Source of the DNA: Antedon mediterranea
Lineage: Eukaryota > Echinodermata > Crinoidea > Comatulida > Antedonidae
Length of the DNA: 64,000 nt
Direction of reading: 5' to 3'
Assembly: GCF_964355755.1 (NCBI RefSeq)
Contig: NC_092672.1
Span: 7,812,001 to 7,876,000 of the forward strand
Below, piece after piece: positions 358 through 63,572 of this stretch. Each line of letters starts with the position of its first letter. Within the stretch, counting starts at the first letter, position 1. Made by a program: the position numbers and the translations under genes. The notes beneath the pieces are model-generated. The model was not told where the DNA came from. It saw only the letters and a program-made list of their open reading frames with translations, and made no database searches.

Positions 358-1172
358 ATATTACATCATACAAGCCAGGTTTCTCAAAGCCAGGTAGGAT
401 AATATTATCAAATACTTCTTAAATTATCAAATACTTCTTCATTCGAAGAAATAGATAATGAACCATTTGTAAACTATGACTATGCATTATTACTATGCAA
501 ATACTAATAACTGTAATTATTACATTTACAGATATTATTACATTCAACAAGCCAGGTTCCTTAACTTTAGGTAGGCTATTATCATCAAATTCTTCTTAAA
601 CTCTAATAAGAAAAACAATTATTTGAATTGCTCATTCGAAGAAATGCATATTTAACCATTTTGTTAAAGTCAAAGTAAAACTTTATTCATCACTCACTGT
701 GCGAAACGATGTAGTTTATGATCCTATACATTATATTAAAATACAATAAAATTATAAACTATTTATAGACTATGCATTATGTACAATACTAGTATTTATT
801 TTATTTTATTTTATGTCTTTAGGCAATGTGGCCAAGGATTACCAATAGTGAATTAATCACTGTCCTATCAGATAGGTGGTAATCCCCCTGATACAGGGGC
901 TATTTTGTGAACCAGTTCACCGGGGTAACCCCTCCTCTTTTTCGAATAATGAACTAGGTTCTTTAAAGTGCACACAGGTTATAACTGCAGTGTAGAAGAC
1001 TTGTTCCACCACCAGAACTAGGAGCGAGTCGGCCTCGAACCCTTGCCGATGTTGTTGGCTCTTTAGGTACGGTAAACGGCGCCCCTGTCTTAACCGCTCG
1101 GCCATTTGACATTGATCTGTAATTATTAATCTACAGATATGACAGACGACAAGCCAGCTTTGTTAAAGTCAG
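358..1172 (+). repeat. Triplicated linker mini-exons of locus A
   Basis: Three short exons of 36, 39 and 36 bases (358-393, 532-570, 1137-1172) share the pattern D-x-T-x-x-K-P plus a small hydrophobic tail. Each is preceded by a similar ACAG acceptor and followed by GTAGG. The surrounding intron text also repeats (the stretches at 416-470 and 590-660). Exons 1342-1404 and 2645-2704 form a second Ser/Thr-rich pair beginning ATCCA. A decayed relative begins at 2997 and lacks a donor. Exon duplication is the simplest reading. Confidence 0.6.
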
Positions 1173-4100
1173 GTAGGCTATTTTATCAATAGCTTTTAGA
1201 ATTATGAATTCCTCCCGTACTCAAAATGGACCTCGGGTACTAATCTTTCTCCATACTTCTGCATTATAATTCTTTTATAGTGGTTTGAGTGTCTAAAAGT
1301 ATATTAAAACAAATTAGAGTAATAAAACGTTTAATTTTCAGATCCATCATCTATGAGCCAACCCTCAACAGCCTCAACGGATGCAACAGACGTTGCAATG
1401 GCAGGTAGGTCGCTTATTTAGTTTTCATTATTTTAATAAAGAACATGCACTGTTTACCGATTCCATGCAGTGCTGTATCTCCACATACTAATATTTCCGA
1501 GGTATTATAGGAATATTTGGTAACACAGCATCACATGTAAGATTAGGTTAAGGGTTAGGTTACTACTACATACAACATGTGAAACACATGATGTTGTATT
1601 ACCAAATATTTCTATTCTTTGGAAATAGATACAGTACCGAAAATCGGCTGGTTAAATGAAATCAATTTAAGCTATTATATGTGGATGATAATTCAGTACA
1701 TTACTGTTTACTTTTCACATTTTTTTTTGTAATCGCGAATCAGTGTTATATCGTCATTACTCGACAAATGTGAGATTTATGATACATACGCATGAATTAT
1801 TCATTGCTATAAATTATTATTCATGTTGAAGACAGAACTTTACTAACCAAACTCTTCCACTTTGTACTGTAGGCCTACAAGAAGTAATGAGAAATAAGAA
1901 TGTCTGAAATTTACGATCAAAACTATCGTGCCTAACTGCTATTAATTCAAAATATTGATGATGTATATTATATAATAACATTCCAATTATTATTTTGATA
2001 CACAGAGACTTAAGAATAAGCATACAACATCATTTTCTGGCATATAAACATTTTATTGAAAAAAATGAATGTAACCTGCATGTGATTGTGGATATGTATA
2101 ATTCAAGTTAAACGCAGATTTTATTTTTCTAATATCACATTTATGCTCAGGAAAAAGCCCGTCTTATAGTTCATGTAATATTACATGTGGGTGGGCGGGA
2201 AAAAGGGGGAGATTAAAATTATCTTACTGAATAATTGTTGGAGACGTGAGAGCAGCGTGGTCCAAGAGGATTGTACCACGCCCTCTCACTTCTCAAAATA
2301 TAATCGTGTTAAACTTTGTTTTCACACAATTCCTGCTTTTTGATACACAGAGACTTAAGAATAAGCATACAACATCATTTTCTGGCATATAAACATTTTA
2401 TTGGAAAAATGAACATTCTAAACGTGTAACCTGCATGTGATTGTGGATATGTATAATTCAAATAGACGTAGATTTTATTTTTCTAATATCACATGGATGC
2501 TCAGGAAAAATCCCGTGGCAGGTATGAAACACCGCCGAAAGCAGCTGAAATTTACGATCCAAACTATCGTGACTAACTGCTATTAATTCAAAATATTGAT
2601 GATGTATTATAATAACATTCCAATTATTATATTTGAATTTTTAGATCCAAGCTCTACTACTGCGGACCAACTATCACCTGACGCAACAAACGATGCAAAG
2701 ACAGGTAGACAAACTAATGTGTTTAAAAAGAAAAATATAAAAACAATAGTTTCTTTTTGATTTACAGACGTTTAATCAATGTTGCCATCCCTCCATTACT
2801 AATAGTAATAGGCCTATAGTAGTACTACTATAGTAGTAGTTTTTGATCCTACATACATATGGCTATTCATTATCGATATCAATCATTTTTGAACATCACA
2901 TTGAATAAGGGAATTCAACACATGGCAGGCTACACCGTATCAGCTAAGATATGAATATAACGAATTTATTTAGAATAAAACATATGTAATTTTCAGATCC
3001 ACCATCTGTGAGAAAATTCTTAACAAACTTTCTCTACAACTATTTTGTCAAAAAAAGTTGGACTGTTTGCATGGGATGTATTTTTTTTAAATATTAATCA
3101 ATTATGTGTAATGTTATTACAGTAACGAATTCATGATTTAACCAGGGAAGATTGAAAATACAATTTGTAATTTTACTTTTTCCTGTTTTAACTATAACAT
3201 TAATTAATAATGAAATAATGTCGTCCTTCTATAGGTCAGTTATAGAGAGTGTAATAACGTATTCTTTAACGGTATGGTTCGGTAGCGCTACCGAAAATGA
3301 AAAGCGTGACCTAAATAGAATAGTCAAGACCGCATCGCGTATAATTGGATCTGCACAACTGCCTTTGGAGAACATATTTTCGGATCGTTTTCTGAAAAAG
3401 GCAGTGGCTATTAAAGATGATCAATTTCATCCGGCCTCTAGTATGTTCCAGTTGATGCGCAGCGGTCGGCGATTTCGTTCTATTAAGGCCAATAAGGCAC
3501 GATTTACAAATAGTTTCTTTCCAGGATCTATTAGAGCCTTAAATATGATGTAGACCCCTTTTTTTTTTTTGTAATGTTTTTGTTTTTGAGTTCGTGTTGT
3601 GTCCGTTGGATATTGTGCTCCGCCAACAGAGCAAACAGAATTTCTATGTTTTTCCTAAAACAAATGATAATAAATGATACTTGACTTGACTTGACTTGAT
3701 TATAAACTATTTATGTATTAATTCATGTATTTTTATATTTCGTTTTATTTATTATTACGTAATTATGCCAACATAATCGTGAACAAAGCCAGGCCTAATG
3801 TCCAATTTATTGTTGCTAGAAATGTCTTATATTGTTACCATTTAATATTTTAAACACATTTTTTGTAGATTTAACTGATGCAGAATTAACTATATTGATG
3901 GCAAGGGTATCTGGCTGGTGTACTACCAACGGGATAAACTTAAACAAGCTGAAAGTGGTAATGAGCGAGTTCACGAATGATAAGCTTACATTAGCCACGA
4001 TCCAGAAAAAGAGCAATGCTTTAGATCTGTTAAAACTACTGAGAGAGGCTGGATTAATTAATCCAACAGACATCAGTGTTCTCATTGAAATAATTAAATT

Positions 4101-4419
4101 GTCTGGGATTGAGGGTGTTCAAAGCGAGATTAAGGAAGAATGGAAGGTACCAAAATTCAAAGATGTTCAAATCAAACACGTTAGAGAGCATCGTAAGAAA
4201 CTTCTGGCGTTTGGTCGCAAAGTATCCAAGGAAAACGTCAAGACGATTGGATTTCTAAACAGCATCTTAGTTGACGAAAACACTGATCCATATTTCTTAA
4301 TTTTAGAATTAGAAAGAAATGGCTTACTCAAAGCAGGAGAAATGTTCGAGAAATTCATTAAGACACTTAAAGAATTTAATATGCATAATGAAGTTGATGC
4401 ATTAGAGCACGGTGAATAA
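358..4419 (+). CDS. Locus A: 3' part of a DED-DED gene with repeated linker mini-exons
   Basis: This looks like the 3' half of a gene whose start lies upstream. Linker exons, each after an AG acceptor and before a GT donor, are at 358-393, 532-570, 1137-1172, 1342-1404 and 2645-2704; all are phase 1 on both sides. The terminal exon is 3869-4419, starting after TTTTTGTAG and ending in TAA. It encodes about 183 residues with two helical repeats. The first has the DED-like core LDLLKLLREAGLINPTD; the second follows the motif EHRKKLLAFG and has DPYFLILELERNGLL. The same exon recurs in loci D, E1 and E2. The DED assignment rests on this helix pattern; the classic RxDL motif is not evident. By family, such domains mediate homotypic assembly in cell-death and immune signalling. 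Whether a TIR precedes it cannot be seen. A LINE fragment lies in the last intron. Confidence 0.62.
822..1110 (-). mobile_element. tRNA-derived SINE (Ser/Leu-like head), minus strand
   Basis: Read on the minus strand from 1110, the sequence begins ATGGCCGAGCGGTTAAG, a type-2 tRNA A box, and has a B box GGTTCGAGGCC about 70 bases later. A body of about 190 bases follows. The acceptor arms do not pair, so this is a SINE, not a working tRNA. Body sequence with GTGCACAC and CCAGTTCACCGG recurs at 43741-43846. It sits in an intron of locus A. Confidence 0.7.
1903..2645. repeat. Local direct duplication in a locus A intron
   Basis: Two partly overlapping blocks repeat in direct orientation. The block around 1903-2000 recurs at 2543-2645, and the block at 1997-2161 recurs at 2339-2517, with small indels. 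No coding frame explains the conservation. It looks like a local rearranged duplication inside the intron before linker exon 2645-2704. Confidence 0.55.
3152..3703 (+). mobile_element. 3' end of a CR1/L2-type LINE
   Basis: An open frame from 3152 to 3553 encodes the C-terminal tail typical of CR1/L2 reverse transcriptases: ESVITYSLTVWFGS, then RIVKTASRIIG, then SGRRFRSI and NSFFPGSIRALN. It ends in TAG and is followed by a short 3' UTR and a (TTGAC)n tail near 3678-3700, as expected for this group. Only the 3' end is present, so the copy is 5'-truncated. It lies in the last intron of locus A. Confidence 0.8.
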
Positions 4420-5388: not shown

Positions 5389-5735
5389 AATTGTCATTTT
5401 TTTCAGTAATTTGTCTTTGGATTTATATATATATATATAAACACATTAGGCAATGAACATTAATTCTAAACCGCACGGTGATATACTGAAATTTAATTAA
5501 TTAATTTGAAACGATAAAGATGAAGAAATCTGTGAGAATGAGAACCGAGACTCGAACTCGGACCGCCTGCTTGATATGCAGATGTCCTAACCATTAGACC
5601 ACTGGGCTTTCATGGTATTGTTCAAACGGCGGAACAGCACTAGTCCTCAGTTGTACGCACGCGCAACAGAGATCAAATTGATACGCCCTCATCTTTCAGT
5701 ATTTTTATTCACGAGGCGGGATCTCCGAAGAGATA

Positions 5736-5814
<79 letters not shown>

Positions 5815-5846
5815 CCAAAGGCAAATTACTGAAAAAAATGACAATG
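5389..5846. mobile_element. MITE-like element with 47-bp inverted ends and a tRNA-like core
   Basis: The left arm (5389-5438) and right arm (about 5795-5846) are reverse complements over about 47 bases with one mismatch; each combines CAGTAATTTGTCTTTGG with an (AT)n run. Between them is a tRNA-like unit on the minus strand and a stretch at 5630-5700 that recurs at 61893-61965. Terminal inverted repeats suggest a DNA element, while the tRNA core suggests a SINE. Confidence 0.6.
5540..5611 (-). pseudogene. tRNA-like sequence, minus strand
   Basis: On the minus strand this has an A box TGGTCTAATGGTTAGGA and a B box GAGTTCGAGTCTC at the right spacing, with an anticodon-arm-like stem CTGC/GCAG. 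The acceptor arms do not pair, and the anticodon would be the unusual AUC. It is best read as a tRNA pseudogene or SINE head. Confidence 0.6.
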
Positions 5847-5870
5847 CTGTGGGTATCAGTGGCTGGATCT

Positions 5871-5941: not shown

Positions 5942-5944
<3 letters not shown>

Positions 5945-5949
5945 CAGCT

Positions 5950-8551: not shown

Positions 8552-11500
8552 ATGTCTGTGAGTTTTAGACAAATCTCTTTTTTTCATAATTTTGTATTAT
8601 TTCAGTAATACCAGTATTTTCAAAACTCTAACTACATATTATATAAAGCAAACAAAAACTACATACATTATAACTATAGTAACCATGCCAATATGTGCAT
8701 AAATTGATAAATTTAGTGAATATAAAGTATATACGTAGGCCTAAATGTTTCACATATCAACGCTTTCCTGCTTTTTTCATTATTAATATGTATGTAACTT
8801 TTTTTTAACTATTGCTACATTATAGAATATTTTAAAATAACATTATAATCATTATAACATCAACCTTCCATCATTATAATAGAACCGAGGATTAGTTAAC
8901 TATTCTCGATCAGTACAACTACATAACAAACTGGCAGTACTGATGAATATAATTTCTTTCAGGAAAGAGGATACATTATGCTCTGCTATAGTTGGAAGGA
9001 CGAAAGGTAAGTTAAAATAATATATATTTTATATTATTATTATATTCCATGTAAACACGTGAACGTGATTGGTTCAAATGGCATCACATGGCTACCGTTC
9101 CGGGGATCAAAAATGTTATAACGGACTGATAAGTGAGTTTAAATGTAATATAACAGATATTGATTTGTGTATAGTGTAACAGTTGAGATCCTGCTTGGGA
9201 CTTATGCCTACATTTTTTTACTCGAGACTAATTATAAAATATAATTTCGTCGGGGGATCTCAAATGTTATAATCACTTCTAAGCAATTAATATCTGTATA
9301 ATAATAACTATACGAATAACTATTATTTTATAATATGATCTATATCGCATATTTAGAAATACATGTTTTTTTTTATAAAATAACACATTTTAGTAATACA
9401 TAATGAATGAAACATTTTTAATAATTTCAACAATAAAATTGTTAACGTTTATTAGAATCGTTGAAATGATATGGGAACGTTTAGAACAAGCCGGTTACAG
9501 AGTGTGGATTGACCGAAGTGGTACAGATGGACTGAAACGAAAACATAAGTCTATTTACATTGAAATGGCAAAGGCTGTCAAAAATGCGACGGTCGTAATT
9601 GGATGTTTATCTAAAGCATACCAGGAAAGCGAAAATTGTTTACGTGGTAAATGTTTGTATTGAATAATTTAAATATTTAAAACGATTCGTTGTTTTTGCA
9701 TTATTTTTGTTTAATCTACCCAGAACTAACATGGAAATTACATTATGTTTATAATTCAGAGGGCAATATGATCGGAAATCGTAACAAAGATTGTATTCCT
9801 ATAATTGCGGAGAAGGGTTATAAACGAAACGAGTGGGTTGAGACAATATTTGGTGGACAAATCTACATTGACTTTTCAAATGCAGAGGACTTTGAAAATA
9901 GTTTCAAGATTTTGCTTTTGAGGTTAAAAGATTACACAGATTTGGTAAATTATAATTGCATTATCTATTTATTGTTAATGTTCTTCCTCTTTTGGCCAGT
10001 GTTCCATGGTATAGAATAAGTTTCAATAATAACTAAAATCATTATATTGTTACAAGCATGCTCGTGAAAAAATGAAATCATTTTCTTTTTAAAAAATGAA
10101 TGTGAATTTGTTGTAACCAGACATAACTAAAATTCTTATTGAGAATAAATCTTTGTTCCAACATTTTTCATTCATTTCTTAGTTGAAATAAATAACATTG
10201 GTACCTTATGCGATCCTAATGCACTCCAAATTTCACGAAAATTGATCGAGTTAACTCTGTACTGCGTCATCTTTTCTTAAATATTTTTTCTGCTTACATA
10301 ATTTTATTATATTTTTTAGCATTTTCTAATACATAAATTGTCATGGCCAAATAAGATAAGAGATGTTTGGTATCATAAATAGTATTTCCTACAAGCATGA
10401 ACTAATCTAATGAACACATAAAGTTCGAAATATAGAATCACTTTTACTTTTACATAAACAGTAAAATATGTGAAAAGGAGCCAAAAAATAACTTTCTTTC
10501 AAAGTTTGACTCCTGTAACAAAAATAAATTATAAGCATAAATTTTGATCCAACAAAAATAATTCAATAAGAAAAAAACAACAACTATATAAAAGAAATAA
10601 AGTAAACATGTGCTAATGTTTTTGTAAAAGTGAACATTAACTTCATTTATGAATTTAAATCTTGAAGAGGTAAATTTTATAGCTAAGGATAAATTACTCC
10701 AAAGTTGAGCTCCATTAAAAAAAAGAAGTACGAACTTTCGGAATTGCAAAATTATTTCTATTACTAAATTTGGACTAGCATTAAGTGTAATTAAATATTT
10801 CATAGTTTGATGCGGTGTTTGCCATTAATTTGGTCATTAAAATTTAACTATACTTAAATCAATCAAACAACTTATAACCGTCTAAAATACCCAGGTCTTT
10901 AAATAATGGAGAAGATGGAGCCATAAATCAAAGAAAGTTAGGCCTATATACATCTAAGACACATTTTTTGGATAAGTAAAATAGGATATAGATGCGACTT
11001 ATATGTACTACCCCAGACTTCTAAAATCTATTTGATTGAATAAATGATTTATAGGCCTAAAGCATTAGTAAAATAATACGGGGTACAATATGGCGTAAAC
11101 TAAAAAGAATTCCATATTTCTTTTTTTTATCCTATATTTAATATATGGCTTTTCCATGTGATATGTTTATCTAATTTAACAACTAAAACTGAATTTCTTC
11201 TTTAATCATAACATTTTTTGTAATAAATATTGTTTGATTTAATAATAATTTTAGATCGGTTACAAACAAGGCCAACATCCATTAAGTCGCGTGCTACAAT
11301 GCATAGTGATACCGGACCGACAGACAAACAGACCAACAGACAGACAGACCGACAGACAGACGGACCGACCGACATAGTGAACTATACTGACCGAAATTAC
11401 TGAACATGTTTAAAAATGTTGAAATGTTTAAAAACATTTATATTTTTTTAATTTACACGTGCGTAGCCTGTCACTTTTGACGTGCTCGTATAACGTAATT

Positions 11501-14500: not shown

Positions 14501-17500
14501 AAATACAATCAACTTTATTACTGCGGTTCCATCACCACCACCACGTGCCGCCCAATTCCCGTACATACATTTCCATTTCTCCCTAATTTCTTTAATCCAC
14601 ATAAATTAATTGTCCTTTATGGAATCCAGTATTGGTTTTGTTGTCTCTATTTCTGAATACCCCAATTAGGGGGACACTTCCGTTTTTGTTTAGTGTCCCA
14701 AAAAAGTCCCCGTCCGTGGATTCTACTGTATTCGAGAACCATCTGTGAGCACCCCTAGATGGTACGCGAGCGAAGCGAGCGTGCCATCTAGTTAATACAA
14801 TTTATTGGATTACGGTCGAAGCGGCCGCCAACCAAAGCGGCCGCTAGTTCAATAACGGTAATTTGTATGGAACGCCGTGTGCGCTTTGATTGTCGTTGTT
14901 TTGTCATTTTTGATTGTCATTGTTTCGATCGTCAGGTTTTCTTTTCCTCGGACGTAAATAACAACTTACATTATTAATATTATGTAATATATTCTCTTTT
15001 TTGACAGATTGAATGTGATACCTTCTTTTAAACGAAATGGCGAATCGATGATTACTTACTTTAACTGTTCTAAATGATATAGGCCTATATGTTTAATAAA
15101 GTCAATAAAAAACATTGTGGTGTTTTTATTGTATAATATATAATATGCCAATTATTAAGAATAATATATATATTTTTTCAGTAAAATATATCAAATCAAA
15201 ATATATATATTTGTTATTGTATATTAATATATTAGTAAAGTAACTACTGTAAGTAGTACGTGTTCGCAAACATAATTTAATTACAATAACATGATGACAT
15301 CAATCTATTTATTTAATATCCTAAATTGTTTTATACCTTCAGATATATAAATATTGATCAATTTAAAATTAGTTTTAAATACTAAAATAAGACGCAAGTG
15401 CCTGTACGGTACGGTAATTAATTACGTGAATTTCTGCTAATAACTCGACTGGCGGCCGGCCAGGAATAGTGCTGTAGAAGGTCGCGTTTTCGTCTTCACG
15501 TTGCTTCATTGAAAACACAAACAATGTATTACAATGGAATAACACTTAAATGTATAACACACCCTATTACTAATAATAAAAACCAAGATTCGATAGTACA
15601 GTGTAAACGAGATATAAAAATTCGGCAATACCGTACGTAACTTATTATTGCAATACTGTATAAAGATTCGATGTAAATGAGATATAAATATTCGGCAATA
15701 CCGTACGTAAATTAATGCAATACTGTAAAGATTCGATGTAAATTAATGAGATATAAATATTCGGCAATACCGTACGTAACTTATTATTGCAATACTGTAT
15801 AAAGATTCGATGTAAATGAGATATAAAGATTCGGCAATACCGTACGTAAATTATTAATGCAATACTGTAAAGATTCGATGTAAATGAGATATAAATATTC
15901 GGCAATACCGTACGTAAATTATTATTGCAATACTGTATAAAGATTCGATGTAAATGAGATATAAAGATTCGGCAATACCGTACATGAATTATTAATGCAA
16001 TACTGTATAAAGATTTGATGTAAATTAGATATAAATATTCGGCAATACCGTACGTAAATTATTATTGCAATACTGTATAAAGATTTGATGTAAATGAGAT
16101 ATAAAGTTTCGGCAATACCGTACGTAAATTATTAATGCAATACTGTAAAGATTCGATGTAAATGAGATATAAATATTCGGCAATACCGTACGTAAATTAT
16201 TATTGCAATACTGTATAAAGATTCGATGTAAATGAGATATAAAGATTCGGCAATACCGTACATGAATTATTAATGCAATACTGTATAAAGATTTGATGTA
16301 AATTAGATATAAATATTCGGCAATACCGTACGTAAATTATTATTGCAATACTGTATAAAGATTCGATGTAAATGAGATATAAAGATTCGGCAATACCGTA
16401 CATGAATTATTAATGCAATACTGTATAAAGATTTGATGTAAATTAGATATAAATATTCGGCAATACCGTACGTAAATTATTATTGCAATACTGTATAAAG
16501 ATTTGATGTAAATGAGATATAAAGATTCGGCAATACCGTACGTAAATTATTAATGCAGTACTGTAAAAAGATTCGATAGTATGTAAATGAGATATAAATA
16601 TTCGGCAATACCGTACGTAAATTATTAATGCAATACTGTATAAAGACTCGATAGTATGTAAATGAGATATAAAGATTCGGCAATACCTTAATAGTACGTA
16701 AATTATTATTGCAATACTGTAAAAAGATTCTATGAGATACAAGGATTCAGCAATACCGTACGTAAATTATTAATGCAATACTGTATAAGGATTCGATAGT
16801 AAATGAGATATAAATGTTCGGCAATACCGTACGTAAATTATTATATTGCAATACTGTAAAAAGATTCGATAGTATGTAAATGAGATATAAAGATTCGGCA
16901 ATACCGTACGTAAATTATTATTGCAATACTGTATGAAGATTCGATAGTATGTAAATGAGATATAAATATTCGCCAATACCGTACGTAAATTATTAATGCA
17001 ATACTGTTAGACAGGTTCCATTTCTCAAAAAACGGCCTAGAAAACGAATCAAGAAGCATTTTTGGGTAGAAGCTGGGATCCACTTGATTTAGGATATTTC
17101 GACCTCGCTGATTACGAATATGGCGGATCCCAAGCGAAATTCGGCCATCTAAGCCCTTAATTTGCATAATTAAAAATGGCGGCCATTTTTTATAATTACC
17201 CTATATCTCGAGAACCACTAGTCACAGATAATTAATATTGGTCTCAAAATGTTTTAAATATATGTTTTTATATTCACTTTAATGACACATTTTCTCAAAA
17301 AATGGATGCAAGTCTTATTTCTGACATTTTGACCTTTGACCTTGATTTATCGTATCTCAGTAACCAATAATCGGAGAGACACGAAATAGGGCTCAAATTG
17401 TTTAGAAACTATACATTCATATTTATTATAATGAAATGTTTTTACAAAAAATGGCCGATTCTACAACTATTGACCTTTGAACTATTAGTCAAATATAATA

Positions 17501-38800: not shown

Positions 38801-39319
38801 ATGCATTTTAGATTAAAATATCTTTTTTTTTAATCTAGGCCTATATATTATATAGATGTGTTAATGTATTCAATTTACTTACTTTACTTTCTTTCGTTAA
38901 GCATAGTCTCGATAGATAGAGTAAAATAGAGTACTTAAACCGAACTGGGATTTAAAATTAACAATCTCAATTCAAAACAGGAATATGAAGAATTTTATTT
39001 ATTTGTAACATTATAATTGTTATTTTTCATCAAATAAAGAGTTCCTTTTTATATAGATGCAACCAATAAATTAATGGATTTGGCAAAGAAATTGGGCACT
39101 GAATGGAAACAAGTTGGAGTATATCTTGGCTTCAAGCAAGAAGATTTCTATCGGTTTGAAAATGATAGTGGTAACAACACAGCATGGGCAATTTTCAGCA
39201 TGCTGGACCGATGGTATAAGAATGCAGAAATTCATGAGAGGTATGAAAAACTTACTAAAGCGCTCAAAGAATCCGATAGGAAGGATTTAGCAGATGAAGT
39301 TCAAAGTTGGCTAGCATAA
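35840..39319 (+). CDS. Gene C: TIR / coiled-coil / Death-domain protein, compact copy
   Basis: Exons are 35817-35845 (ATG TCT at 35840), 36221-36264, 36795-36985, 37103-37287, 38135-38207, 38590-38784 and 39057-39319. They have the same sizes and phases as gene B and again give 318 residues. Differences are few: GRGYIML for ERGYIML, IVEK for IVEM, DCFPII for DCIPII, AEIHERY for AEVHERY and DRKDL for DREDL. The TIR has AGYRVWID and the split-codon Glu in ENCLREGN. The coiled-coil segment begins KTTQVSDVINILNSEIKEL. The Death domain begins at LMDLAKKLGTEW. Its short introns make it the better template for the structure. The acceptor for exon 4 (AATTCAG at 37102) was chosen over one 39 bases upstream because it matches gene D in length. 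Confidence 0.8.
38370..38450. repeat. Dispersed repeat tail (unit 2 copy; unit 1 copy at 22585-22650)
   Basis: ACCGACCGACATGGTGAGC followed by the hairpin-forming GAGTCGCGTTGTACGCACGCGACT. It lies in the intron between linker and coiled-coil exons in both gene B and gene C. Confidence 0.5.
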
Positions 39320-43846: not shown

Positions 43847-43849
43847 TTT

Positions 43850-46038: not shown

Positions 46039-49000
46039 ATGACGGTAAGTAATTTATTTTATTATAAACATCTATTGGAGAGGAAAGTATCGAGAACAAT
46101 AGAATAAATTTAGTACCGTATACACACCAAAGTAAAACAATAAATAAGCCATACTACTACCATAGCTGGTCAATTTAAAGTTTCTTTATACACCGGCTCC
46201 ACATTTCGAAAACTTTGAATATAAAAATAAAAAACATAATTTATTTATGTCATTGCTATGTGCCTGTTTGCACTTTGTTCAATGCATTCGTTAAATATTT
46301 TTTTGTTTACTCCAATTGCCGTTGAATACGAATTTATGAATTATGAACTATATCTGTATCGATTTCACTGTTCAAACTAGGAATTATTCACTGTACCAAA
46401 TTATCATAATATAAATAAAGACTTATACCGTAATTCTATTATATCATTACTCTTACAGTATAATATGTATTGACATGAATTTATGTAATGTAATTAATGT
46501 GAATTGTTTTTAGGAAAGAGGATACATTATGCTCAGCTACAATTGGGCTCACAAAGTGTAAGTTTAACAAATAATAAAACAAGTAATAAGATATTTAGGA
46601 CTAACCATGCACCCGGATTTCAGTATTATACGCGTGATGACGCGCAAACGTCGTGTTTTATTCATTCTTGTATATCTAGTCACCATTGATAAAATTACAG
46701 ACTATAGAACAGTCAGGGTAAAATATATATAAATATGATTGGAGGAAAAGAGAAGGCAACATTATGACGTATTTCACAAAATAGTGACTAAATGCCGTCA
46801 AGAATTGCAACGTCATCGTATTACGTAAGCCTAAAAATGATATTAGTGTATAATCCATCAGTCATGTTTAGAGAACAATAGTTTTAAGAAAGAATCAATT
46901 ATTTTCTCTTCCTTAGAATCGTTAGAAATATAAGATACCGTCTATGGCAAGAAGGTTACAGAGTGTGGATAGATATTGATGAGAAGGATGGAATGAAAGA
47001 CTTTATTTACAGTGATATGCCTAATGCTGTCAAACATGCCACAGTTGTCATATCCTGTTTGTCTAAGAAATACGAAGACAGCCCTAATTGTAAAACTGGT
47101 AGGTCTGTTTTAATTGATTTTATATAAGCTTATCTAGGTTATCGACAGCGATTTATCTTAATATTCCTAACACATCTTGGCATACATGGCGTGTCATAGG
47201 CTAGCCCCAGTCTCTAAATAAATAATAGTCTTTTTATGTTGTTAGCATTCCACAAGTCATTTCGTGTCTACAAGCTACAGTTATTATACGTATGAAACGC
47301 CGCGTGTGTCTTTTTTAGCATTATTATGTCTATCTACACTATTTAGCGAGTGCCATACTTGACTTTGAAACTACAAACAAACATCAAAATATATCTATAT
47401 TGTATAACTTAAAGACAACAATCAATTATTAGAGAAACAATCATTAGAGACTTGTGGCAGGTATAATATCAAACAGACGATTTCGAGTTCGAATCTCCTT
47501 TATGTCATTTAACAAGAAAGACAATAATGCAAAAAATGCAGAGTCACCGTTATTATTAGGACCATTTTCCACTGGAAAACTGCAATGTCTTGAAACAAGG
47601 TGCAGAGAATAAAATTGATGGTGAGCTATATTTAATTTTTTTTTCTTTATTTTAGAGGGTGGTTGCATTGGACATTATAATAAGAAACGCATTCCACTAC
47701 TGATGGAGAAGGATTATAAACTTGACGACTGGGTTTTGGGAATATTTGTTGGACGAATTTGGATTGACTTTTCAAATGTAGAACGCTTTGAAGCCAATTT
47801 TCAGGAACTGCTTGCAAGACTACAGAACTACCCAACTTTGGTAAGTTAAACGATTCTACACGATTTATTGTATTATGCCCATTACAACAGACGGAACTGA
47901 AGATTGAGGACTCCTTACTAACCCTTAGCCTATAGAAAACAAACCCATTCTTTGTCAACCCTAATCATACAATAATAGATCTCACTTTTTGTTATACCAT
48001 AAGAAAATCATTTTTGTTACAGAATCCAGAGAAGAACAACCGAATACCAGCTAATCTACCGCTACCTGAACCACTTTCTTCGAACACAAATCCAAGTATG
48101 TTAAAGATTTATGTAGAAATTATCTTAACAATTAAGCTAAATAATTTAATATGCTATTTCAGAATACTATATTTACTTTTAAATTACAAGTAGTCTTGGA
48201 ATAAGCTTGGTGATAACCTACGTATATCATATGACTCCCGGGAGGCAAATGGTAAGTGTAATTTGAGTGGGGCTCATTGTTGTAGGCTTCGTCAATTCAA
48301 ATAAGCTTTTGGACACATTAGAATAAAAAGCATTGCCTGTCGATTAGAAATGGCAGAGGGTGAATTTATTTATTTACTCATATGAAATCTAAAAAACATC
48401 TACCATATAGCAAATTTAACTTAGCTGTATAAACACTGAAAAACTACAGTATATAAGCATAGGGAATTTAGGTTTTTATATCCAATTCAATTGTCTGTTC
48501 GCCATTTCCCTCTATTGTGGATGATAAAGGCAAGATACTTCTCATAAAATTCACAAATAATCTAAAAAAAAATTTACTTTTGTGTTTAGTTCCACCATCT
48601 ACATCTTCGGATCCTCCAGATACAGCGCCCCCAGTGGACACAACGGATAATCCACGTTCTTTAGGATCAGGTAAGCAAATCTTTCCTTAATCAGAAATGA
48701 CTTTTTTTTTAAACTATAGTTTACTGATAACATTTTAAAAGCTAACTGATCTATTTTACAGAAATATCTGGTAATCTTGAAGAGAGGACAACTAGTAGGC
48801 CTACAAGACCAAGTTACAGTAGGATTATATCAGAACATTAATTTCTTTACATAGGCCTATAATTATCATAGTAGGATCCTACACATTTCTACAGATAATA
48901 AACAAGAGATATATCATTGCATGTAAAGCAGTATAATTTATAGGCCTTGGGACACATCTCCTCTCAGACCTAATCTATACGTATTTCAAAATACATCAAC

Positions 49001-49666
49001 CACTAGTAACTGTGCTACTTTACCAATTAATATTATTATTATTATTACTGTATTTATTTTACATGTTAATTGTTATGAAAGAAACCATTATATAAATATT
49101 TTACTTTTTATATAGAATTGACTGAACGTGAATATGCAAGTCTGCTCGTAAAAGTTTCACAACGTTGGAAAAAGTTTGGCAACGTCCATATGTTGAAGGT
49201 ACTACTATGTGACTTTAACAAAATCGGAATAACTGAAATTCAAAAGAATAATGACGAATTTGAATTGTTTAAGTTACTCCGGGGTAGTGGTAAACTGAGT
49301 CCATCAAACATAGATGTTATCGTCGAGGCTGCGTTCTTATGCGGGGTAGGGGCTATTGAGGAGGTCATCCTGGATAAGATACCGGAATATCAGTACCCTA
49401 CGTCTAATAAAGAAATAAATACAATCACAAAATATCGCCAAAACGTGATCGAATTCGGAATTATTGTAAATCAAAGTAACTTGGAAGAAATTGTAAAATT
49501 GTCTAGTCTTCCTTGTAAGAAGGAGGCAGATAAGTGGAGTCTGATATTTGAACTAGAACTTCATAATGTACTGACTCCAAAGAATAAGGAGTCATTCATT
49601 GAAATGCTAGGAGATCTAGAAAATGACACGACGAAAGAAGTCGATGCATTGAACACTTACAAATGA
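46039..49666 (+). CDS. Gene D: TIR with two DED-like domains
   Basis: Exons are 45996-46044 (start ATG ACG at 46039), 46514-46557, 46917-47098, 47656-47840, 48023-48095, 48590-48670, 48762-48794 (donor uncertain; 48818 also fits) and 49116-49666, with compatible phases throughout. The protein is about 384 residues. Residues 3-139 are a TIR: RGYIMLSYNW, EGYRVWIDIDEKDGM, VVISCLSKKYEDSPNC, then Glu (about residue 78, codon split by an intron) and RIPLLMEKDY, close to metazoan TIR_2. A Pro/Ser-rich linker covers residues 140-201. Residues 202-384 hold two DED-like repeats (FELFKLLRGSGKLSPSNID; FELELHNVLTPKN). The start exon has an acceptor, so a 5' leader exon is expected. The likely role is a cytosolic innate-immune or cell-death adaptor or NAD-consuming effector; this is inferred. 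Confidence 0.75.
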
Positions 49667-50482: not shown

Positions 50483-51545
50483 CTATGATTTAATAAAATT
50501 TGTTTTATAAATACAAAAAGTAAACAATGATAATAATTTATTGACATTTTCACTTTTTGTTCCAATAACAATGTCTAGCCAATCATGTACGGTTTCTTCA
50601 AGTGTATAGCATTTTAGAATCATGTTATTGAATTTTGTCCATACTTTTTGGATACTTTTACATTTCAATAGCATGTGCTTGTCTGTCTCAATTTCGTTTT
50701 GGCAGTGTTCGCACATTTCTTCAGGATATATTTTCCATATCTTAATTCGTTGTTTACATGCCAGAATCCGATGTAGCAGTTTAAAATTAAATTTTGCTAC
50801 TTTTGTTACATGTTTCATGCTATACTTTTTTAACCATATTTCATTCCACTTAAAGTTCACATTTCTAAATTCTGTTTCCCATTTCGATTGACAAAATGGA
50901 GTAATAGATATATTGTTGATAATGTGTTTATAATAAAATGAATTTTTATACTTTTTACAAAATATTGTTTGTATTTCGTGTTTGTCTCTCTCTTTTTCAT
51001 TGTTTATAATTATTTTCCTCCAATTTGAGGGAATTGCATTTACAATCTTAAAATATTCAATTATTCCATTTTGTTGCTCTGAAAGGGAGGGTATCAATTC
51101 TGTCGGAGTCATTAATCTGTGATTAACTATTATATCTTTTATTGTTTTATACCCTGCCTGTATCCAACTTTTAAAATATAATGTTTTTCCACTGCATTTT
51201 ATAAAAGTGTTTTCCCACAATAGTTGTTTTTCGTTTACATTTTGCGGGTATGTAATACTTATATTGTTAAAATACACTAACACTTTTAACATTTCTTTAT
51301 AAAATTCAGGCATACATTTCAGTTGTACATGACTTTCAAAATTGGGTTCACTAGTATTGACAGTATAATTAAATGGATACATATAATGTTTTGGTAAATA
51401 TTTCCATTTACCTGGGTCAGGGCTTAACAATCTCTTAACCCAACTAAGTTTTTTAACGAACTAACCATTGTGCTAAGATGTACCATATTTAGACCACCTT
51501 CTAATATTGAATTTATAAGGGTTTTTCTTTTATTTTTTCTCTTTT
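50483..51545 (-). mobile_element. C-terminal end of an L1/Tx1-like LINE, minus strand
   Basis: A 315-codon frame on the minus strand (51430-50483) has KWETEFRNVNFKWNEIW and the zinc-knuckle-like CEHCQNEIETDKHMLLKC (C-x2-C-x7-H-x4-C) seen near the C terminus of L1/Tx1-type ORF2 proteins. Before it, 51545-51435 reads as the expected GGLNMVHLSTM...SLK block in another frame, separated by a one-base shift in an A run. It is 5'-truncated and not functional. Confidence 0.75.
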
Positions 51546-56355: not shown

Positions 56356-57562
56356 ATGCACGTCGTTCGCAAGTTTGACAAAGATAAGTTGCCTTGTGGA
56401 AGCAATGCAATGGATGTTACACGTTACCGTAAACTGTTTGAAGAAACAGGTATTCATTTCATTGTCTGGATCTGTAGCACCAATTAGTTATAGACATGGG
56501 TTTAACACTGAAAGGTTAAAATTAAAATTCTTCTGAATTTAAAACTCATATCAAATAAAATACAATTTTTAAGAAAATATGAACATTTTTTTCGAAGACA
56601 TTTGATTTACCGTATAATTGACTTTTGATATGGAAATTTGAATCAGCGTTACTAAAGTATTATTTTGTTCATACTTCATACAAATCTTAAGATAACATTA
56701 TCATTATTACTTCTATGACAGAAGGCCACGGCGCTACTGGTGTGGCACATGGTGAGGCTACAGGTACACCAAACGAACCAACATCAATGACAGGTTAGGA
56801 GATTGTATGTTTGTGTTTTTTTGTGTGTTAAACTTAAATGTTTGATGATATAAAACACATTAATCTATAAGATTATGAAAGTTTCGTAATACAGTACAAA
56901 TTTCCAAATGAAAATTGTACTAGGAAGGTGTTTAAACATGATTAAGCACGTTACAGAAACATAATGTATACATACTGTATCATAGGCAGATAACACTGGT
57001 AAATCGTCTTATTATATTATTAGAATTAACAGAGGACGAATTCAATGAACTGTTAACGGATGTATCTCTTTGGTGGAAGAAACATGGAAACATTAACATG
57101 CTGAGAGTGTTGCTTAGCGAGTTTACACGTCATCATAACAGCATCGCTCTACACACATTAGAGGAAGCAAAGACACCTTATGATCTGATTCGTTTACTTA
57201 ATGCTTCAGGACTTCTCAAACCGACAGACATAGATATCCTCGTTGAAGCCACTAACTTATGCGGACTTCAGGGAGTTCGGGAAGCGATTGTGAAATCACC
57301 AAACTTCGACGTTCCATACAAAAACTTCTCAGACCATCGAAGAAAGTTAATAGCGTTGGGTCAACAAATGAATACAGACAACAAGCTAATTATAGGCCAA
57401 CTTAAGGACATTAGTGTCAACGATGACACAGATCCGTTTTGGTTAATCTTAAAATTGGAAATGAAAGGCACACTTGCAGAGGGAGAGAAGATTGAAAAAT
57501 TCATTGAACAAATGACACGTTATGGTATGACTAAAGAAGTGGAGGCATTGACAAAACTTTGA
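56356..57562 (+). CDS. Gene E2: DED-DED protein without TIR
   Basis: Three exons, 56356-56449, 56722-56793 and 57024-57562, give 234 residues with phase-1 introns. The first encodes a short N-terminus with MHVVRKFDKDKLPCG and RYRKLFEET. The second is a Gly/Thr/His linker. The third is the DED pair: ELTEDEFNELLTDVSLWWKK, PYDLIRLLNASGLLKPTDID, DHRRKLIALG, DPFWLILKLEMKGTLAEG and MTKEVEALTKL, stopping where A and D stop. It is closest to A and E1. With no sensor domain it could be a soluble partner, regulator or decoy for the TIR-DED proteins; this is inference. The N-terminal exon is assigned from the open frame and donor only, so the true start could be elsewhere. Confidence 0.7.
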
Positions 57563-58871
57563 TAAATCAACCAGTATAAGGAAAACAACATTTGAATGAG
57601 TGCATGAATGAGACACTAGAATGCTATGGGAAAAGTTTGTTCTGCACAGAAATAACTTTTATTCTGTTTGACGTTGACGTTTGTATTGTTCTGGTATCAT
57701 TGGACAAGTTGGCCTTGATTACATATTGGACGTATAATAGTGTTGTTATAAATACAAATGATGATACATAGAAACTACTGTAGTATTAAAACAAAAGTAC
57801 TGTATGAATACACCATCAATACATGCATTTGTATAGTTAAATATTAAAAGTTGTGTCATAACAGTATTAACCAGATATTCTATAAGAATATTTAAGTTTA
57901 AAAGAGTGTACGTCCATTGTCCATTTGGAGCCAATAACAGCATTAAAAAGAACACAACTAAAGTACACAACATAATAGTTTACAACTTATGCCTCAACAT
58001 CGTCATAGAGTTGAATAATAAAGTGAATAAACAAATAATTGAATGTAATGGCCACTGTATCTGATATCGTAAAAACTAGAATCAAAAGGAACCCTTTATT
58101 ATAATAACGAACTCTTTGATTATTTCAAAGTTTAATCAGGACATTCTAAAATGTATTTGTCATTGTATATATTGTATATTATATTGTTTATACAATTTTT
58201 TCCTCTCTATTTTTTTTTTTAAGGATTTTGAAATAAATTGAATTAAATAAATTGATTTATGATTTTATTGTTTTTCTCCCCCATTAGGATAACTGGATCT
58301 TCAATTTTGCCACCAGCTTCATCATAAAAAAAATCCCCAACAATCATGCGAGTGTGATTATAATGCATTCGGCAATACAAACTAGATTACTAGAATACAA
58401 AATGTAGTACAAATACAACAATTGTGAAGAATACAAATTGATGTTCTTAATGTAATAATAATAACAATAATATGTAGATATTTATAACTCACTATAATAC
58501 AAACATAATCAAAGGCGCAGTGAATAAAAGTAACCAACAATTTTTTTTTAACAAGGAGGATTTCAGCATAGTTTTGAATAATAAGTTTAAATTTGAACAT
58601 AAAGAGGTAAGGTGCCTGAACCGGAAAAGACCGTCTTGAAGAAATGCATTAGAAGAATAAAGAGAACGGGTTAAAGAATAAGGTGAAAGAGAAACAGATT
58701 TGATGGTTGTTTGAAAACTATTGATTTGGAAAAAAGAAGGAGAATTTTAAATAGTATCCGTTATTTCATAGAAAGTCAATGAAGGTCTGTAACAATGTGT
58801 TGTTTACACCAGGGAAGAGCGACTCTCCCTCCCACTTGAGGAGTACTGAATGCAGTACTATTATTTGTATA
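57563..58871. other. 3' flank of E2
   Basis: Probable 3' UTR and intergenic DNA, with AATAAA near 58016. Minus-strand frames at 57746-57973 and 58382-58600 lack recognisable content or splice partners. Nothing else supported. Confidence 0.4.
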
Positions 58872-61156
58872 GGCTAAATAGGATAAGTAGGAGTAAGTAG
58901 GATAAGTAGGAGTAAGTAGAAGTAAGTAGGAGTAAGTAGGATAAGTAGGAGTAAGTAGAAGTAAGTAGGAGTAAGTAGGATAAGTAGGAGTAAGTAGGAG
59001 TAAGTAGGATAAGTAGGAGTAAGTAGAAGTAAGTAGGAGTAAGTAGGAGTAAGTAGAAGTAAGTAGGAGTAAGTAGGATAAGTAGGAGTAAGTAGGAGTA
59101 AGTAGGAGTAAGTAGGAGTAAGTAGGAGTAAGTAGGAGTAAGTAGGAGTAAGTAGGAGTAAGTAGAAGTAAGTAGAAGTAAGTAGGAGTAAGTAGGATAA
59201 GTAGGAGTAAGTAGGAGTAAGTAGGAGTAAGTAGGAGTAAGTAGGATAAGTAGGAGTAAGTAGGAGTAAGTAGGAGTAAGTAGAAGTAAGTAGGATAAGT
59301 AGGAGTAAGTAGGAGTAAGTAGGAGTAAGTAGAAGTAAGTAGAAGTAAGTAGGAGTAAGTAGAAGTAAGTAGAAGTAAGTAGGAGTAAGTAGGAGTAAGT
59401 AGGAGTAAGTAGGAGTAAGTAGGAGTAAGTAGGAGTAAGTAGGAGTAAGTAGGAGTAAGTAGGAGTAAGTAGGAGTAAGTAGGAGTAAGTAGGAGTAAGT
59501 AGGAGTAAGTAGGAGTAAGTAGAAGTAAGTAGGAGTAAGTAGAAGTAAGTAGGAGTAAGTAGGAGTAAGTAGGAGTAAGTAGGAGTAAGTAGGAGTAAGT
59601 AGGAGTAAGTAGGAGTAAGTAGAAGTAAGTAGGAGTAAGTAGAAGTAAGTAGGAGTAAGTAGGAGTAAGTAGGAGTAAGTAGGAGTAAGTAGGAGTAAGT
59701 AGGAGTAAGTAGGAGTAAGTAGGAGTAAGTAGGAGTAAGTAGGAGTAAGTAGGAGTAAGTAGGAGTAAGTAGGAGTAAGTAGGAGTAAGTAGGAGTAAGT
59801 AGGAGTAAGTAGGAGTAAGTAGGAGTAAGTAGGAGTAAGTAGAAGTAAGTAGGAGTAAGTAGAAGTAAGTAGGAGTAAGTAGGAGTAAGTAGGAGTAAGT
59901 AGGAGTAAGTAGGAGTAAGTAGGAGTAAGTAGGAGTAAGTAGGAGTAAGTAGGAGTAAGTAGGAGTAAGTAGGAGTAAGTAGGAGTAAGTAGGAGTAAGT
60001 ACGAGTAAGTAGGAGTAAGTAGGAGTAAGTAGGAGTAAGTAGGAGTAAGTAGGAGTAAGTAGGAGTAAGTAGGAGTAAGTAGAAGTAAGTAGGAGTAAGT
60101 AGGAGTAAGTAGGAGTAAGTAGGAGTAAGTAGGAGTAAGTAGGATAAGTAGGAGTAAGTAGAAGTAAGTAGGAGTAAGTAGGAGTAAGTAGGAGTAAGTA
60201 GGAGTAAGTAGGAGTAAGTAGGATAAGTAGGAGTAAGTAGAAGTAGGAGTAAGTAGGAGTAAGTAGGAGTAAGTAGGAGTAAGTAGGAGTAAGTAGGAGT
60301 AAGTAGGAGTAAGTAGAAGTAAGTAGGAGTAAGTAGGATAAGTAGGAGTAAGTAGGAGTAAGTAGGAGTAAGTAGGAGTAAGTAGGAGTAAGTAGGAGTA
60401 AGTAGGAGTAAGTAGGAGTAAGTAGGAGTAAGTAGGAGTAAGTAGGAGTAAGTAGGATAAGTAGGAGTAAGTAGGAGTAAGTAGAAGTAAGTAGGAGTAA
60501 GTAGGAGTAAGTAGGAGTAAGTAGGAGTAAGTAGGAGTAAGTAGGATTAAGTAGGAGTAAGTAGAAGTAAGTAGGAGTAAGTAGGAGTAAGTAGAAGTAA
60601 GTAGGAGTAAGTAGGAGTAAGTAGGAGTAAGTAGGAGTAAGTAGGAGTAAGTAGGAGTAAGTAGGAGTAAGTAGGAGTAAGTAGGAGTAAGTAGGAGTAA
60701 GTAGGAGTAAGTAGGAGTAAGTAGGAGTAAGTAGGAGTAAGTAGGATAAGTAGGAGTAAGTAGGAGTAAGTAGGAGTAAGTAGGAGTAAGTAGGAGTAAG
60801 TAGGAGTAAGTAGGAGTAAGTAGGAGTAAGTAGGAGTAAGTAGGAGTAAGTAGGATAAGTAGGAGTAAGTAGGAGTAAGTAGGAGTAAGTAGGAGTAAGT
60901 AGGAGTAAGTAGGAGTAAGTAGGATAAGTAGGAGTAAGTAGGAGTAAGTAGGAGTAAGTAGGAGTAAGTAGGAGTAAGTAGGAGTAAGTAGGAGTAAGTA
61001 GGAGTAAGTAGGAGTAAGTAGGAGTAAGTAGGAGTAAGTAGGAGTAAGTAGGAGTAAGTAGGAGTAAGTAGGAGTAAGTAGGAGTAAGTAGAAGTAAGTA
61101 GGAGTAAGTAGGAGTAAGTAGGAGTAAGTAGGAGTAAGTAGGAGTAAGTAGGATAA
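58872..61156. repeat. 2.3-kb minisatellite of a 10-bp unit
   Basis: About 228 near-perfect tandem copies of AGTAGGAGTA. Variants are GAAGTA (G to A) and one-base-short GATAAGTAG units, concentrated in the first 500 bases. The plus strand has almost no C (one exception near 60002). A 795-codon minus-strand frame of LLLTPTYSY repeats is a by-product of 10-bp periodicity with few stops, not a gene. Every unit contains GTAAGT, the consensus 5' splice-site core. Confidence 0.95.
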
Positions 61157-63180
61157 ATATCACCGTACGATTGACGTAATATGTTGGTTTACTATACTAT
61201 GGCCAGATTATATCATTTCATGTAATACTTTGCTATGCTAGTGTTACAGCAGTTCACTGTGCTAACCACCGTCCCTATACATTTCTCTTCTGGTAAAAAT
61301 ACCAATAAACAAACACCCAGCCGTTCTTACAATCACAATACAATAACCTTAGACATCCTAATAAATATACCACTAAAAATAATTAACTTTAGTACATTAT
61401 AAATTTCACTATGGTATGCATGTTAAACAACCACCGTATTTATTTTTTTATAAATACCAATAGCAAGATAGTTGGAAAGTAAATACAAATTTACTTTATG
61501 CCTACAAAGTTATGGACACGACATCACATTTGTGTACGCTAGTCCTCCCGACATTGCTAATTTAGCTATAGGATTGGCGGTACGTTAAGTAAAGCTTAAA
61601 GCACATAAACCATAAACAATAATCATGGCACCAAGTATTGAATTAAAAGATAGGCTTACCCATGCATATTGGTCATGGTCCATAAATGGATAAATTCCTT
61701 CACTCAATCAGTCTTCTAGGGTATACATCATTTAATTACAATCCAATCAACTCAAATTTTAACATAAAACACTCCATTAGTTATTTCCCCTCCTGCATTA
61801 TACGCCTATCTTTACCATTTGACCATTGGTCTTGCAGCATAGTGTGCTAAAATCCGACATAGAAATTCCTTTCTCGATGTGGCATGATGGGACAGCACAC
61901 TCAATTGTACGCGGCGCAACCAAGACATCAAATAATTGGTATACGCCCTCATCTTAACAAGAATCTATATAGATCTAACACCGTATTTAGCGAAACTGAA
62001 AATCAGTCAATCATTAATAAAAACTTTTGCCTTAGGATTAGCTCATTTTTTAGAAGTTTCTTTTTTAACAGTTTGACGTACGGTACCTCGGAAAACACAT
62101 CTATACTGTTTTTCCAGGGGAGGGGGAGGGAGGGAGGGGGAGCAAGTTTTTGAATGCGAATGAAAACGACTAGGCCCTAATAAGATTAAATTACAATACA
62201 GTACAATATTATTTCTAGTGTAAAAGATTGAATACTGTATGTTCGGGGGAAATATTAGTCAGGTAACCGTTTTATGATAGGTGGTTTGGATTTGAGATTC
62301 AGGTTTTGATCGCGCATGTAGCCTACTTGTCTTCTTTTTAACGACCTTCGTTAAAGACCACTATAATTAAGACTATTTTCTGTGCAGCCTGTGCATGCCA
62401 TAACAAGGCAAAGTAGGCACAAAGCCTTAAATTATAGTTGGCACAAAACAAGTTGATGATGCCCCACTAGTTTTCTTCCAATTAAAGTCCACTTTAGTTA
62501 AAGACACCTCCAATTAGCGACCATTATATTATTTGAGTAAAGACAAGAATAATAAATATTTTTAATTATGTGACAAAAACACGTAACTGTACTGGTACTC
62601 TTCCAATAAAAGATCACTTTACTTAAAGACAGCTTCAATTAGCGACCATTATATTATTTGGTATGAGTAAGTTTTTAATTATGTGACAAAAACACGTTGT
62701 GTACTGGTTCTTATATCAAAAACACAATGAATGGCTAGATAATAAAATTCATTCTCAATGAAACAGCAGTTAAAATAAATTCATTCAGCAATCGAAATAT
62801 CGCAGAATCACATTGCAACGTATGTACCCTATACTGTACACCTCAGATATATTCATGGACAAGTACGTACCGAGGGACTTATATTCTAATGTCGATTCCA
62901 GTCTCTACCCCGAAGTAAACCAAAGTAAAGATAATCATTCATCTATTGTAAACATGATTAAATCAGCTTATCATAATTTTGAGTTCTGGTAATTAAATAA
63001 ATAATATGGTAAGAATAGGCTATGATTATCTTTCTGGAAATTGATAACTGCACTATTTACCAAACAATAGGAGATTCGTTCGTTCCAGCGATTAATTTAG
63101 AATAGTGGGAAATATCTTATTCTATAAATAGGCCTATAAAGGGGAAACAGTGTTTATAATAACCTACATGACGCGAACTT
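61157..63180. other. Repeat-bearing stretch before locus F
   Basis: 61893-61965 resembles the core of the element at 5389-5846 (TACGCCCTCATCTT). 62366-62500 is homologous to 54019-54150. 62505-62600 and 62625-62712 form a direct repeat (AATTAGCGACCATTATATTA and TTATGTGACAAAAACACG). A G-rich run lies at 62117-62142. No exon seen. Confidence 0.45.
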
Positions 63181-63519
63181 CTATTGTTAGCGTTTACCTT
63201 CCTGTAAATTGATCTATCGCCATTTTGGCTTAATACACGGTAAGTATACTATTTCGATTTTTTTATTTCTGTTTAAGCATTTCTACCAAACAAAAACCGT
63301 TTGTGTGTGAATATTGTTAGTATGGTCTATAAAGGAGTACAGTCTAAGACTCGAACACACAAAATAAAGTAGCCACAGGATGTGTACTTACAATAGATTA
63401 AATTATTAATATTGAGGTGTGGGAGTGTCATGAATACGGTAAGCCTATTCTTAATTCTTAATTAGTGGTGTTATAAAGTAATGCTACTTACTATTTATAT
63501 GTTTTACAATTAATTTCAG

Positions 63520-63572
63520 TAAACTGCATACCTATTATTAAACGATAGTCAAGAATTTCAACAATATGGATG
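63520..63572 (+). CDS. Locus F: first coding exon of another cluster member
   Basis: An exon after ACAATTAATTTCAG, with ATG GAT G at 63566 followed by GTAAAT. It is homologous to the E1 first exon (52952-52999), sharing TAAACTGCAT and AATTTCAACAA. A leader exon could end at 63239 (AATACACG|GTAAGT). Phase 1 fits direct splicing to a DED exon, so F probably encodes a DED-only protein. Its body lies beyond the window. Confidence 0.5.

Follow-up and report, generated by a model that had tools for sequence, protein, structure and literature searches.

The question raised by this part of the Antedon mediterranea genome is whether a TIR domain and a tandem DED are encoded by one gene, and what such a protein would do. 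The window (C3:7812001-7876000, the whole 64,000 nucleotides (nt) analysed of contig NC_092672.1) lies in an assembly of 354 Mb in 18 contigs with intron-rich genes. TIR signalling and DED proteins are connected in vertebrates only by chains of separate adaptors, and a natural TIR-tandem DED fusion would make the link between both assembly systems directly testable. Such a fusion is predicted for gene D, one of the six loci (A, B, C, D, E1 and E2) which had been proposed by an initial annotation and were all recovered in the window by tblastn and gene models. With moderate confidence in the statement as a whole (gene model, fold and origin included), D is taken as a cytosolic TIR-DED adaptor or effector by which TIR signalling would be coupled with DED/caspase-8-type death.

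Loci were found by tblastn with long open frames as queries, and domains were scored with Pfam (cut-offs of 28 bits for TIR_2 and 22.6 bits for Death). Loci at the edges were read in the window joined with 18 kb of left flank and 9.5 kb of right flank. To obtain the AlphaFold model of E2, 21 DED-DED exons of the same genome were aligned and used as the input, and the model of D was obtained by the same alignment approach with D as the first sequence. Fold comparison was done by Foldseek and by VIA-align Z scores, and the tree of DED exons was constructed by FastTree. The domains, the gene model, the fold and the differing DED exons behind one TIR-linker head were established by these computations.

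Gene D and the probable continuity of its TIR and DED exons

Gene D is a complete seven-exon gene (46039-49666, plus strand; Table 1) with a product of 373 amino acids (aa), in which a TIR domain is followed by a Pro/Ser/Thr linker of about 55 residues and a DED-DED module. The reading frame has no stop within its 373 codons, every junction is GT-AG with matching phases, and the donors are mostly GTAAG-like. A two-codon start exon, 380-512 nt upstream of the next exon, is present in all four TIR genes (Met-Ser in B, C and T0, a copy described below; Met-Thr in D). TIR_2 and DED alone were matched by Pfam on the spliced product. The best reading is that the linker is flexible and the protein soluble and cytosolic.

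The TIR-DED-DED order given for D by the initial annotation was retained, and two linker exons were added to it. A direct splice from TIR exon 4, which ends in phase 0, is ruled out for the DED exon and equally for the coiled coil of B and C, both of which start in phase 1; linker exons were therefore looked for and found, by side-by-side reading of T0, C and D followed by tblastn, and in B by similarity. Linker exon 1 (phase 0 to 1) is present in T0, C, D and B and, since it is common to the TIR-Death genes, belongs to the TIR side, and linker exon 2 (phase 1 to 1) precedes the DED exon in D and T0. Similarity among the four TIR genes stops at the phase-1 donor of linker exon 1, so these genes must continue, and the phase-1 exon required after this donor is supplied by linker exon 2 with the DED exon. 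In the gap of about 500 nt between the two linkers, no ATG exon of at least 40 nt ending in phase 1 was found in D or T0, in contrast to the DED-only gene E2, which has its own ATG first exon (MHVVRKFDKDKLPC...).

The same arrangement is seen in T0, a second TIR-DED-DED gene just left of the window. A single in-frame TAA in TIR exon 4 of T0 (C3:7807341-7807528) was created by a three-base deletion relative to D, and the splice sites are intact. Between D and T0, the nonsynonymous (dN) and synonymous (dS) divergences were 0.17 and 0.64 for the TIR and 0.29 and 0.65 for the linkers. For the D-type DED, dN and dS were 0.21 and 0.58, respectively. As judged from dN/dS ratios below 1, the TIR, the linkers and the DED are all under purifying selection.

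Some findings weigh against a joint gene. An exon 61% identical to linker exon 2 of D also precedes the DED-DED exon of locus L016 (C1), for which no TIR was detected; linker exon 2 probably came from the DED side therefore, and by itself does not tie the TIR to the DED. The stop in T0 leaves D as the sole known intact TIR-DED-DED copy. The TIR gene might end after linker exon 1 and be adjoined by a separate DED-DED gene with an undetected first exon, the joint reading then being an artefact; L016 and the nearby E2, a separate DED-DED gene with its own start exon, would agree with this. Such a split is improbable, as the similarity of linker exon 1 halts in each of the four TIR genes at a phase-1 donor and calls for a continuation, the gap holds no first exon of the kind sought, and the arrangement has been kept in both D and T0 with dN/dS below 1. 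From the linker exons, the phases and the layout of T0, the TIR and DED-DED exons of D are very likely carried in one transcript, in agreement with the initial annotation.

The TIR and the linkers of D and T0 have diverged alike (dS about 0.64), whereas the DED exons are 32% identical and saturated in dS. In the tree, the DED exon of D was grouped with L025 (C3:7801401-7801931, minus strand, about 59 kb left of D, 68% identical) with a support of 1.00, and that of T0 with L016 and L018 with a support of 0.965. Since the TIR and linkers are close and the DED exons fall into separate clades, one of the two genes probably had its phase-1 last exon replaced. The simplest reading of the sequences is that a TIR-linker-DED gene was duplicated and that one copy later acquired the other DED exon via the phase-1 intron. 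D would have arisen locally in the TIR cluster, in which the TIR and linker exon 1 are common to all members and the phase-1 exons after them differ. The same TIR-linker head is followed by three tails, namely the coiled coil with Death (B and C) and linker exon 2 with either of two DED-DED exons (D and T0). The formation of adaptors may thus be seen in this cluster, with phase-1 introns between head and tails and one tail seemingly exchanged after duplication.

The tandem DED fold and the TIR domain

The 180-residue domain of the DED-DED exons had been put forward as a Death fold, and a tandem DED was indeed predicted for both D and E2. The AlphaFold models had predicted local distance difference test (pLDDT) values of 88.7 (E2) and 91.7 (D) and predicted template modelling (pTM) scores of 0.84 and 0.87, respectively. 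By VIA-align, E2 was matched to the caspase-8 tandem DED 8yd7 with Z 16.8 (165 residues, root-mean-square deviation 2.8) and D to the caspase-8 tandem DED 4zbw with Z 16.3 (169 residues, deviation 3.0); the tandem DEDs of viral FLIP and c-FLIP(S) gave Z 12-13.5, and unrelated chains gave Z below 4 for both models. The first 47 Foldseek matches of E2 were all DED structures of caspase-8, FADD, c-FLIP or viral FLIP. In the models, the agreement with caspase-8 covers each of the two DEDs as well as the way they are packed together, by which the domain is a true tandem DED.

Single-sequence searches of the PDB with E2 and full-length D gave no homologue, and matches were obtained by profile and fold searches. 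In the Pfam check proposed by the initial annotation, TIR_2 and Death were over the cut-off, and the DEDs of A, E2 and D were below it (expect values (E) of 2.3e-5, 0.0097 and 0.013, respectively). DED was matched at E of 1 or lower in 12 of the 21 family members, the best (6.5e-9, locus F) being over the cut-off.

The TIR_2 profile (PF13676) was matched with 63.4 bits in D (profile positions 1-122 of 122), 74.9 bits in B and 59.4 bits in T0. In D, T0, B and C, the catalytic position is occupied by the glutamate of a C-x-x-E motif (NCKTE, NCLRE or NCKRE), and that of D is aligned with the catalytic glutamate of solved TIR NAD+-cleaving enzymes (NADases), in the C-x-x-E of 7xoz. Profile matches of the TIR in the PDB were a plant TIR NADase (E 0.0095), Cat1 (E 0.018) and MyD88 (E 0.021); as the enzymes and MyD88 are matched about equally, adaptor and enzyme are not distinguished by these matches.

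The surrounding cluster

By tblastn, tandem DED-like exons were found at four loci (A, D, E1 and E2); B and C hold both TIR and Death exons, and D has TIR exons besides its DED-like one. Paralogous exons of the cluster were paired at E 1e-16 to 1e-38, well above chance. In single exons, TIR_2 was matched by Pfam at 2.8e-10 and 2e-8 and Death at 1.9e-13, and the scores of 63-75 bits (TIR_2) and 54 bits (Death) compare with the cut-offs of 28 and 22.6 bits. The coordinates are collected in Table 1.

Table 1. Exons of the TIR and DED-DED loci (positions in the window, or on C3 where so marked)
Feature	Position	Strand	Phase and remarks
D exon 1	46039-46044	+	ATG ACG, two codons; donor gtaagt, phase 0
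D exon 2, TIR beta-A (ERGYIMLSYNWAHK)	46514-46557	+	phase 0 to 2; conserved in T0, B and C
D exon 3, TIR (GYRVWID ... SPNCKT)	46917-47098	+	phase 2 to 1; TIR_2 PF13676 2e-8 alone, 3.7e-17 spliced
D exon 4, C-terminal half of TIR	47656-47840	+	phase 1 to 0; junction codon is the Glu of C-x-x-E
D linker exon 1 (NPEKNNRIPANLPLPEPLSSNTNP)	48023-48095	+	phase 0 to 1; 67% identity to T0, E 2.7e-6
D linker exon 2 (PPSTSSDPPDTAPPVDTTDNPRSLGS)	48590-48670	+	phase 1 to 1; 58% identity to T0, E 1.4e-4
D last exon, tandem DED	49116-49666	+	phase 1 to stop
T0, second TIR-DED-DED	C3:7805895-7809209		same seven exons, both linkers included
A candidate Pro/Ser/Thr linker exon (PSSMSQPSTASTDATDVAMA)	1342-1404	+	phase 1 to 1; from a mechanical scan alone
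A tandem DED exon	3869-4419	+	phase-1 acceptor; 41% identity to E2
B TIR exons	8552-8557, 8963-9006, 9456-9646, 9760-9944	+	TIR_2 1e-20
B linker exon 1	22340-22412	+	88% identity to the linker exon of C
B coiled-coil-like exon	22775-22969	+	phase 1 to 1; no Pfam family over cut-off
B Death exon	23243-23505	+	phase 1 to stop; PF00531 1.9e-13
C exons	35840-35845, 36221-36264, 36795-36985, 37103-37287, 38135-38207, 38590-38784, 39057-39319	+	
E1 tandem DED exon	55524 to about 56050	+	two overlapping frames match one DED-DED
E2 first exon (MHVVRKFDKDKLPCGSNAMDVTRYRKLFEET)	56356-56449	+	ends in phase 1; open reading frame upstream of DED-DED locus L010 68% identical
E2 linker exon (GHGATGVAHGEATGTPNEPTSMT)	56722-56793	+	phase 1 to 1
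E2 tandem DED exon	57024-57562	+	phase 1 to stop
F DED-DED exons	C3:7876608-7877129, C3:7878328-7878864		right of the window

The TIR genes of the initial annotation (B, C and D) are real, with the TIR split over four coding exons in each. The order TIR-coiled coil-Death was borne out in B and C, where a linker exon between the TIR and the coiled coil had been overlooked. Both genes are intact, with seven exons, 318 aa and no stop, and are 97.5% identical (dN 0.011, dS 0.033), as read from which they are recent duplicates. Linker exon 1 of B lies about 12.4 kb past the TIR, behind an intron enlarged by inserts. In B, ELTWKLHYVYNS just ahead of TIR exon 4 was tried as coding and rejected as intron, as TTCAG/AGGG gives the conserved E-G start. 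The enlarged intron of B holds a near-perfect palindrome of 3.9 kb (17051-20926) with arms at 17051-18606 and 19391-20926 (about 99% complementary), a spacer of 784 nt, and an open reading frame in its arms in which a CXC-type cysteine motif was weakly matched (PF03638, 0.044).

As to the loci annotated as DED-DED, A and E2 are DED-DED genes, and E1 is broken in the assembly by a frameshift at an A-run at about 55,655, inside DED1. The linker of E2 contains TPNEPTSM, which is conserved in the DED-DED loci L007, L008, L010 and L013. The E2 first exon (MHVVRKFDKDKLPC...) bears a faint likeness to a caspase start, which was set aside because the exon is short, begins with ATG and ends in phase 1. 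Locus F, the probable DED-DED locus of the initial annotation, is real with its DED-DED exons beyond the window, and two minus-strand DED-DED exons were found left of the window besides T0. The cluster, described as lying within 64 kb, has six loci inside and extends past the window on both sides.

The DED-DED exon is not peculiar to this cluster. At least 150 were found genome-wide (of 305 candidates 150 were scored and all 150 were kept, E<3e-5), so the family may well be larger; a phase-1 acceptor is common to these exons in nearly all loci examined. Among the matches listed, a TIR just upstream of a DED-DED was found at D and T0 only, in a by-eye comparison of positions by which weak TIR exons can be missed. 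Since free DED-DED proteins are a genome-wide expansion, adjacency to D says little about partnership. The regions upstream of the DED-DED loci L003 and L016 (C1:3.24 and 2.24 Mb), which are separated by about 1 Mb, have near-identical blocks and a repeat array (KPFYAVIQYKVRQ in translation) in common, which points to a recent segmental duplication of the family.

Just downstream of D, an open reading frame of 325 aa (50483-51460, minus strand) matches zf-RVT (PF13966, 4.2e-6), a remnant of a retroelement of the long interspersed nuclear element type. The region 58776-61196 is a 2.4 kb tandem satellite, open in all three frames of the minus strand (LLLLTPTYSY repeats), and is not a gene. TAGGCCTA-like octamers are recurrent in introns of the genome, as seen across the window (1-64000).

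Proposed role and comparison with known systems

Filament formation with FADD and caspase-8 is known for tandem DEDs, and clustered TIR domains are known to signal or to cleave NAD+. In the proposed mechanism, the tandem DED of D would dock on or co-polymerise with DED filaments, with FADD-like DED-DED-Death proteins, DED-DED-caspase proteins or the many free DED-DED proteins as candidate partners. The TIR would take a signal from TIR receptors or adaptors, or would be clustered and activated by the DED assembly. We infer a function in which one molecule would couple TIR signalling with DED/caspase-8-type cell death, a task that falls to separate adaptors in vertebrates.

Genes of the kinds concerned are present in the genome, with joins inferred from order and strand: a FADD-like DED-DED-Death gene (C6:9.65 Mb), DED-DED-caspase genes at C2:8.90 Mb (ETCRG) and C2:9.12 Mb (QACQG), and Death-TIR genes in MyD88 order (C11:5.62-5.66 Mb). 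TIR_2 was matched 78 times and Death at least 143 times. At the first of the caspase loci (L042, C2:8900201-8902600), ETCRG stands instead of QACxG as the active-site motif. Two TIR segments come after a Death exon at L041 (C11:5615801-5620300), and genes of the order Death-TIR-TIR may therefore exist; the stretch C11:5.616-5.664 Mb holds at least four copies of this kind in tandem.

Two features tell against the coupling proposed or against a catalytic TIR. The E/D-RxDL charge triad is absent from the 21-exon DED alignment, and two canonical DED genes of the genome keep it (IERIDLK and ISRLDLC); by this motif the cluster DEDs fall outside the canonical FADD/caspase-8 DED subfamily, and they may not bind caspase-8-like DEDs. 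The C-x-x-E is shared by MyD88-like TIRs of the same genome, so the glutamate is no proof of catalysis.

By analogy with SARM1, whose tandem SAM oligomerises its catalytic TIR, the TIR of D might be an effector gated by the tandem DED, with filaments clustering the TIRs and turning on NAD+ cleavage. The catalytic-position glutamate of all four TIR genes, the profile matches to the plant TIR NADase and Cat1, and the tandem helical oligomeriser joined to the TIR through a flexible linker agree with this; the same glutamate in MyD88-like TIRs and the MyD88 match of the same profile do not favour it, and the glutamate is the sole NADase residue compared. The idea is kept as a tentative one. Its fuller form, in which a tandem DED of the caspase-8 kind, brought in by phase-1 exon exchange, would nucleate or join filaments and switch on the catalytic TIR, is slightly more doubtful; if true, NAD+ signalling and the caspase-8 platform would meet in one protein. 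A c-FLIP-like decoy, by which DED filaments or TIR complexes would be capped and signalling dampened, is rather unlikely: like viral FLIP and c-FLIP(S), D has a tandem DED and no caspase, free DED-DED genes are many and RxDL is absent, but its TIR is intact and kept by purifying selection (dN/dS 0.27), for which a plain decoy would have no use. That the cluster is decaying and D is a recent non-functional join, as the in-frame TAA of T0, the frameshift of E1 and the large inserts in B might suggest, is hardly probable with D open over 373 codons, all its splice sites intact, dN/dS below 1 in every part of it and both B and C intact.

The TIR-DED adaptor or effector preferred here for D can be set beside several known systems. 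The combination of TIR with tandem DED had been called unusual by the initial annotation, and the pairing was not found in a search of 5.39 million open-access papers. The ecTIR-DC families are invertebrate TIR proteins hypothesised to be adaptors (PMC6321704); like D they are without transmembrane segments, and TIR with tandem DED is not named among them in the part of that paper available. In amphioxus, 28 TIR domain combinations and a lineage-specific pairing of TIR with apoptosis domains were reported (PMC2575513); DED with NACHT is described there, and TIR with DED is unmentioned in the part available.

MyD88 is likewise cytosolic, with a TIR and a death-fold domain. Its order (N-terminal Death, C-terminal TIR) differs from that in the cluster, where the TIR comes first, from residue 7 or earlier, and its C-terminal partner is a tandem DED (D) or a coiled coil with Death (B and C). 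With caspase-8, c-FLIP and viral FLIP, D shares two DEDs packed alike; unlike caspase-8 and c-FLIP, it is without RxDL, its DEDs are C-terminal behind a TIR and a linker, and no caspase or pseudo-caspase follows them, the DED exon ending in a stop codon (Peptidase_C14 had no match in or near the cluster). SARM1, an ARM-SAM-SAM-TIR NADase, likewise combines a C-x-x-E TIR with a tandem helical oligomerisation module, but D has DED-DED instead of SAM-SAM, in the opposite order, and neither ARM repeats nor a tandem SAM were found before its TIR by Pfam. The TIR-tandem DED of D is best read as a variant on the known adaptors of death-fold and TIR domains and not as a new category.

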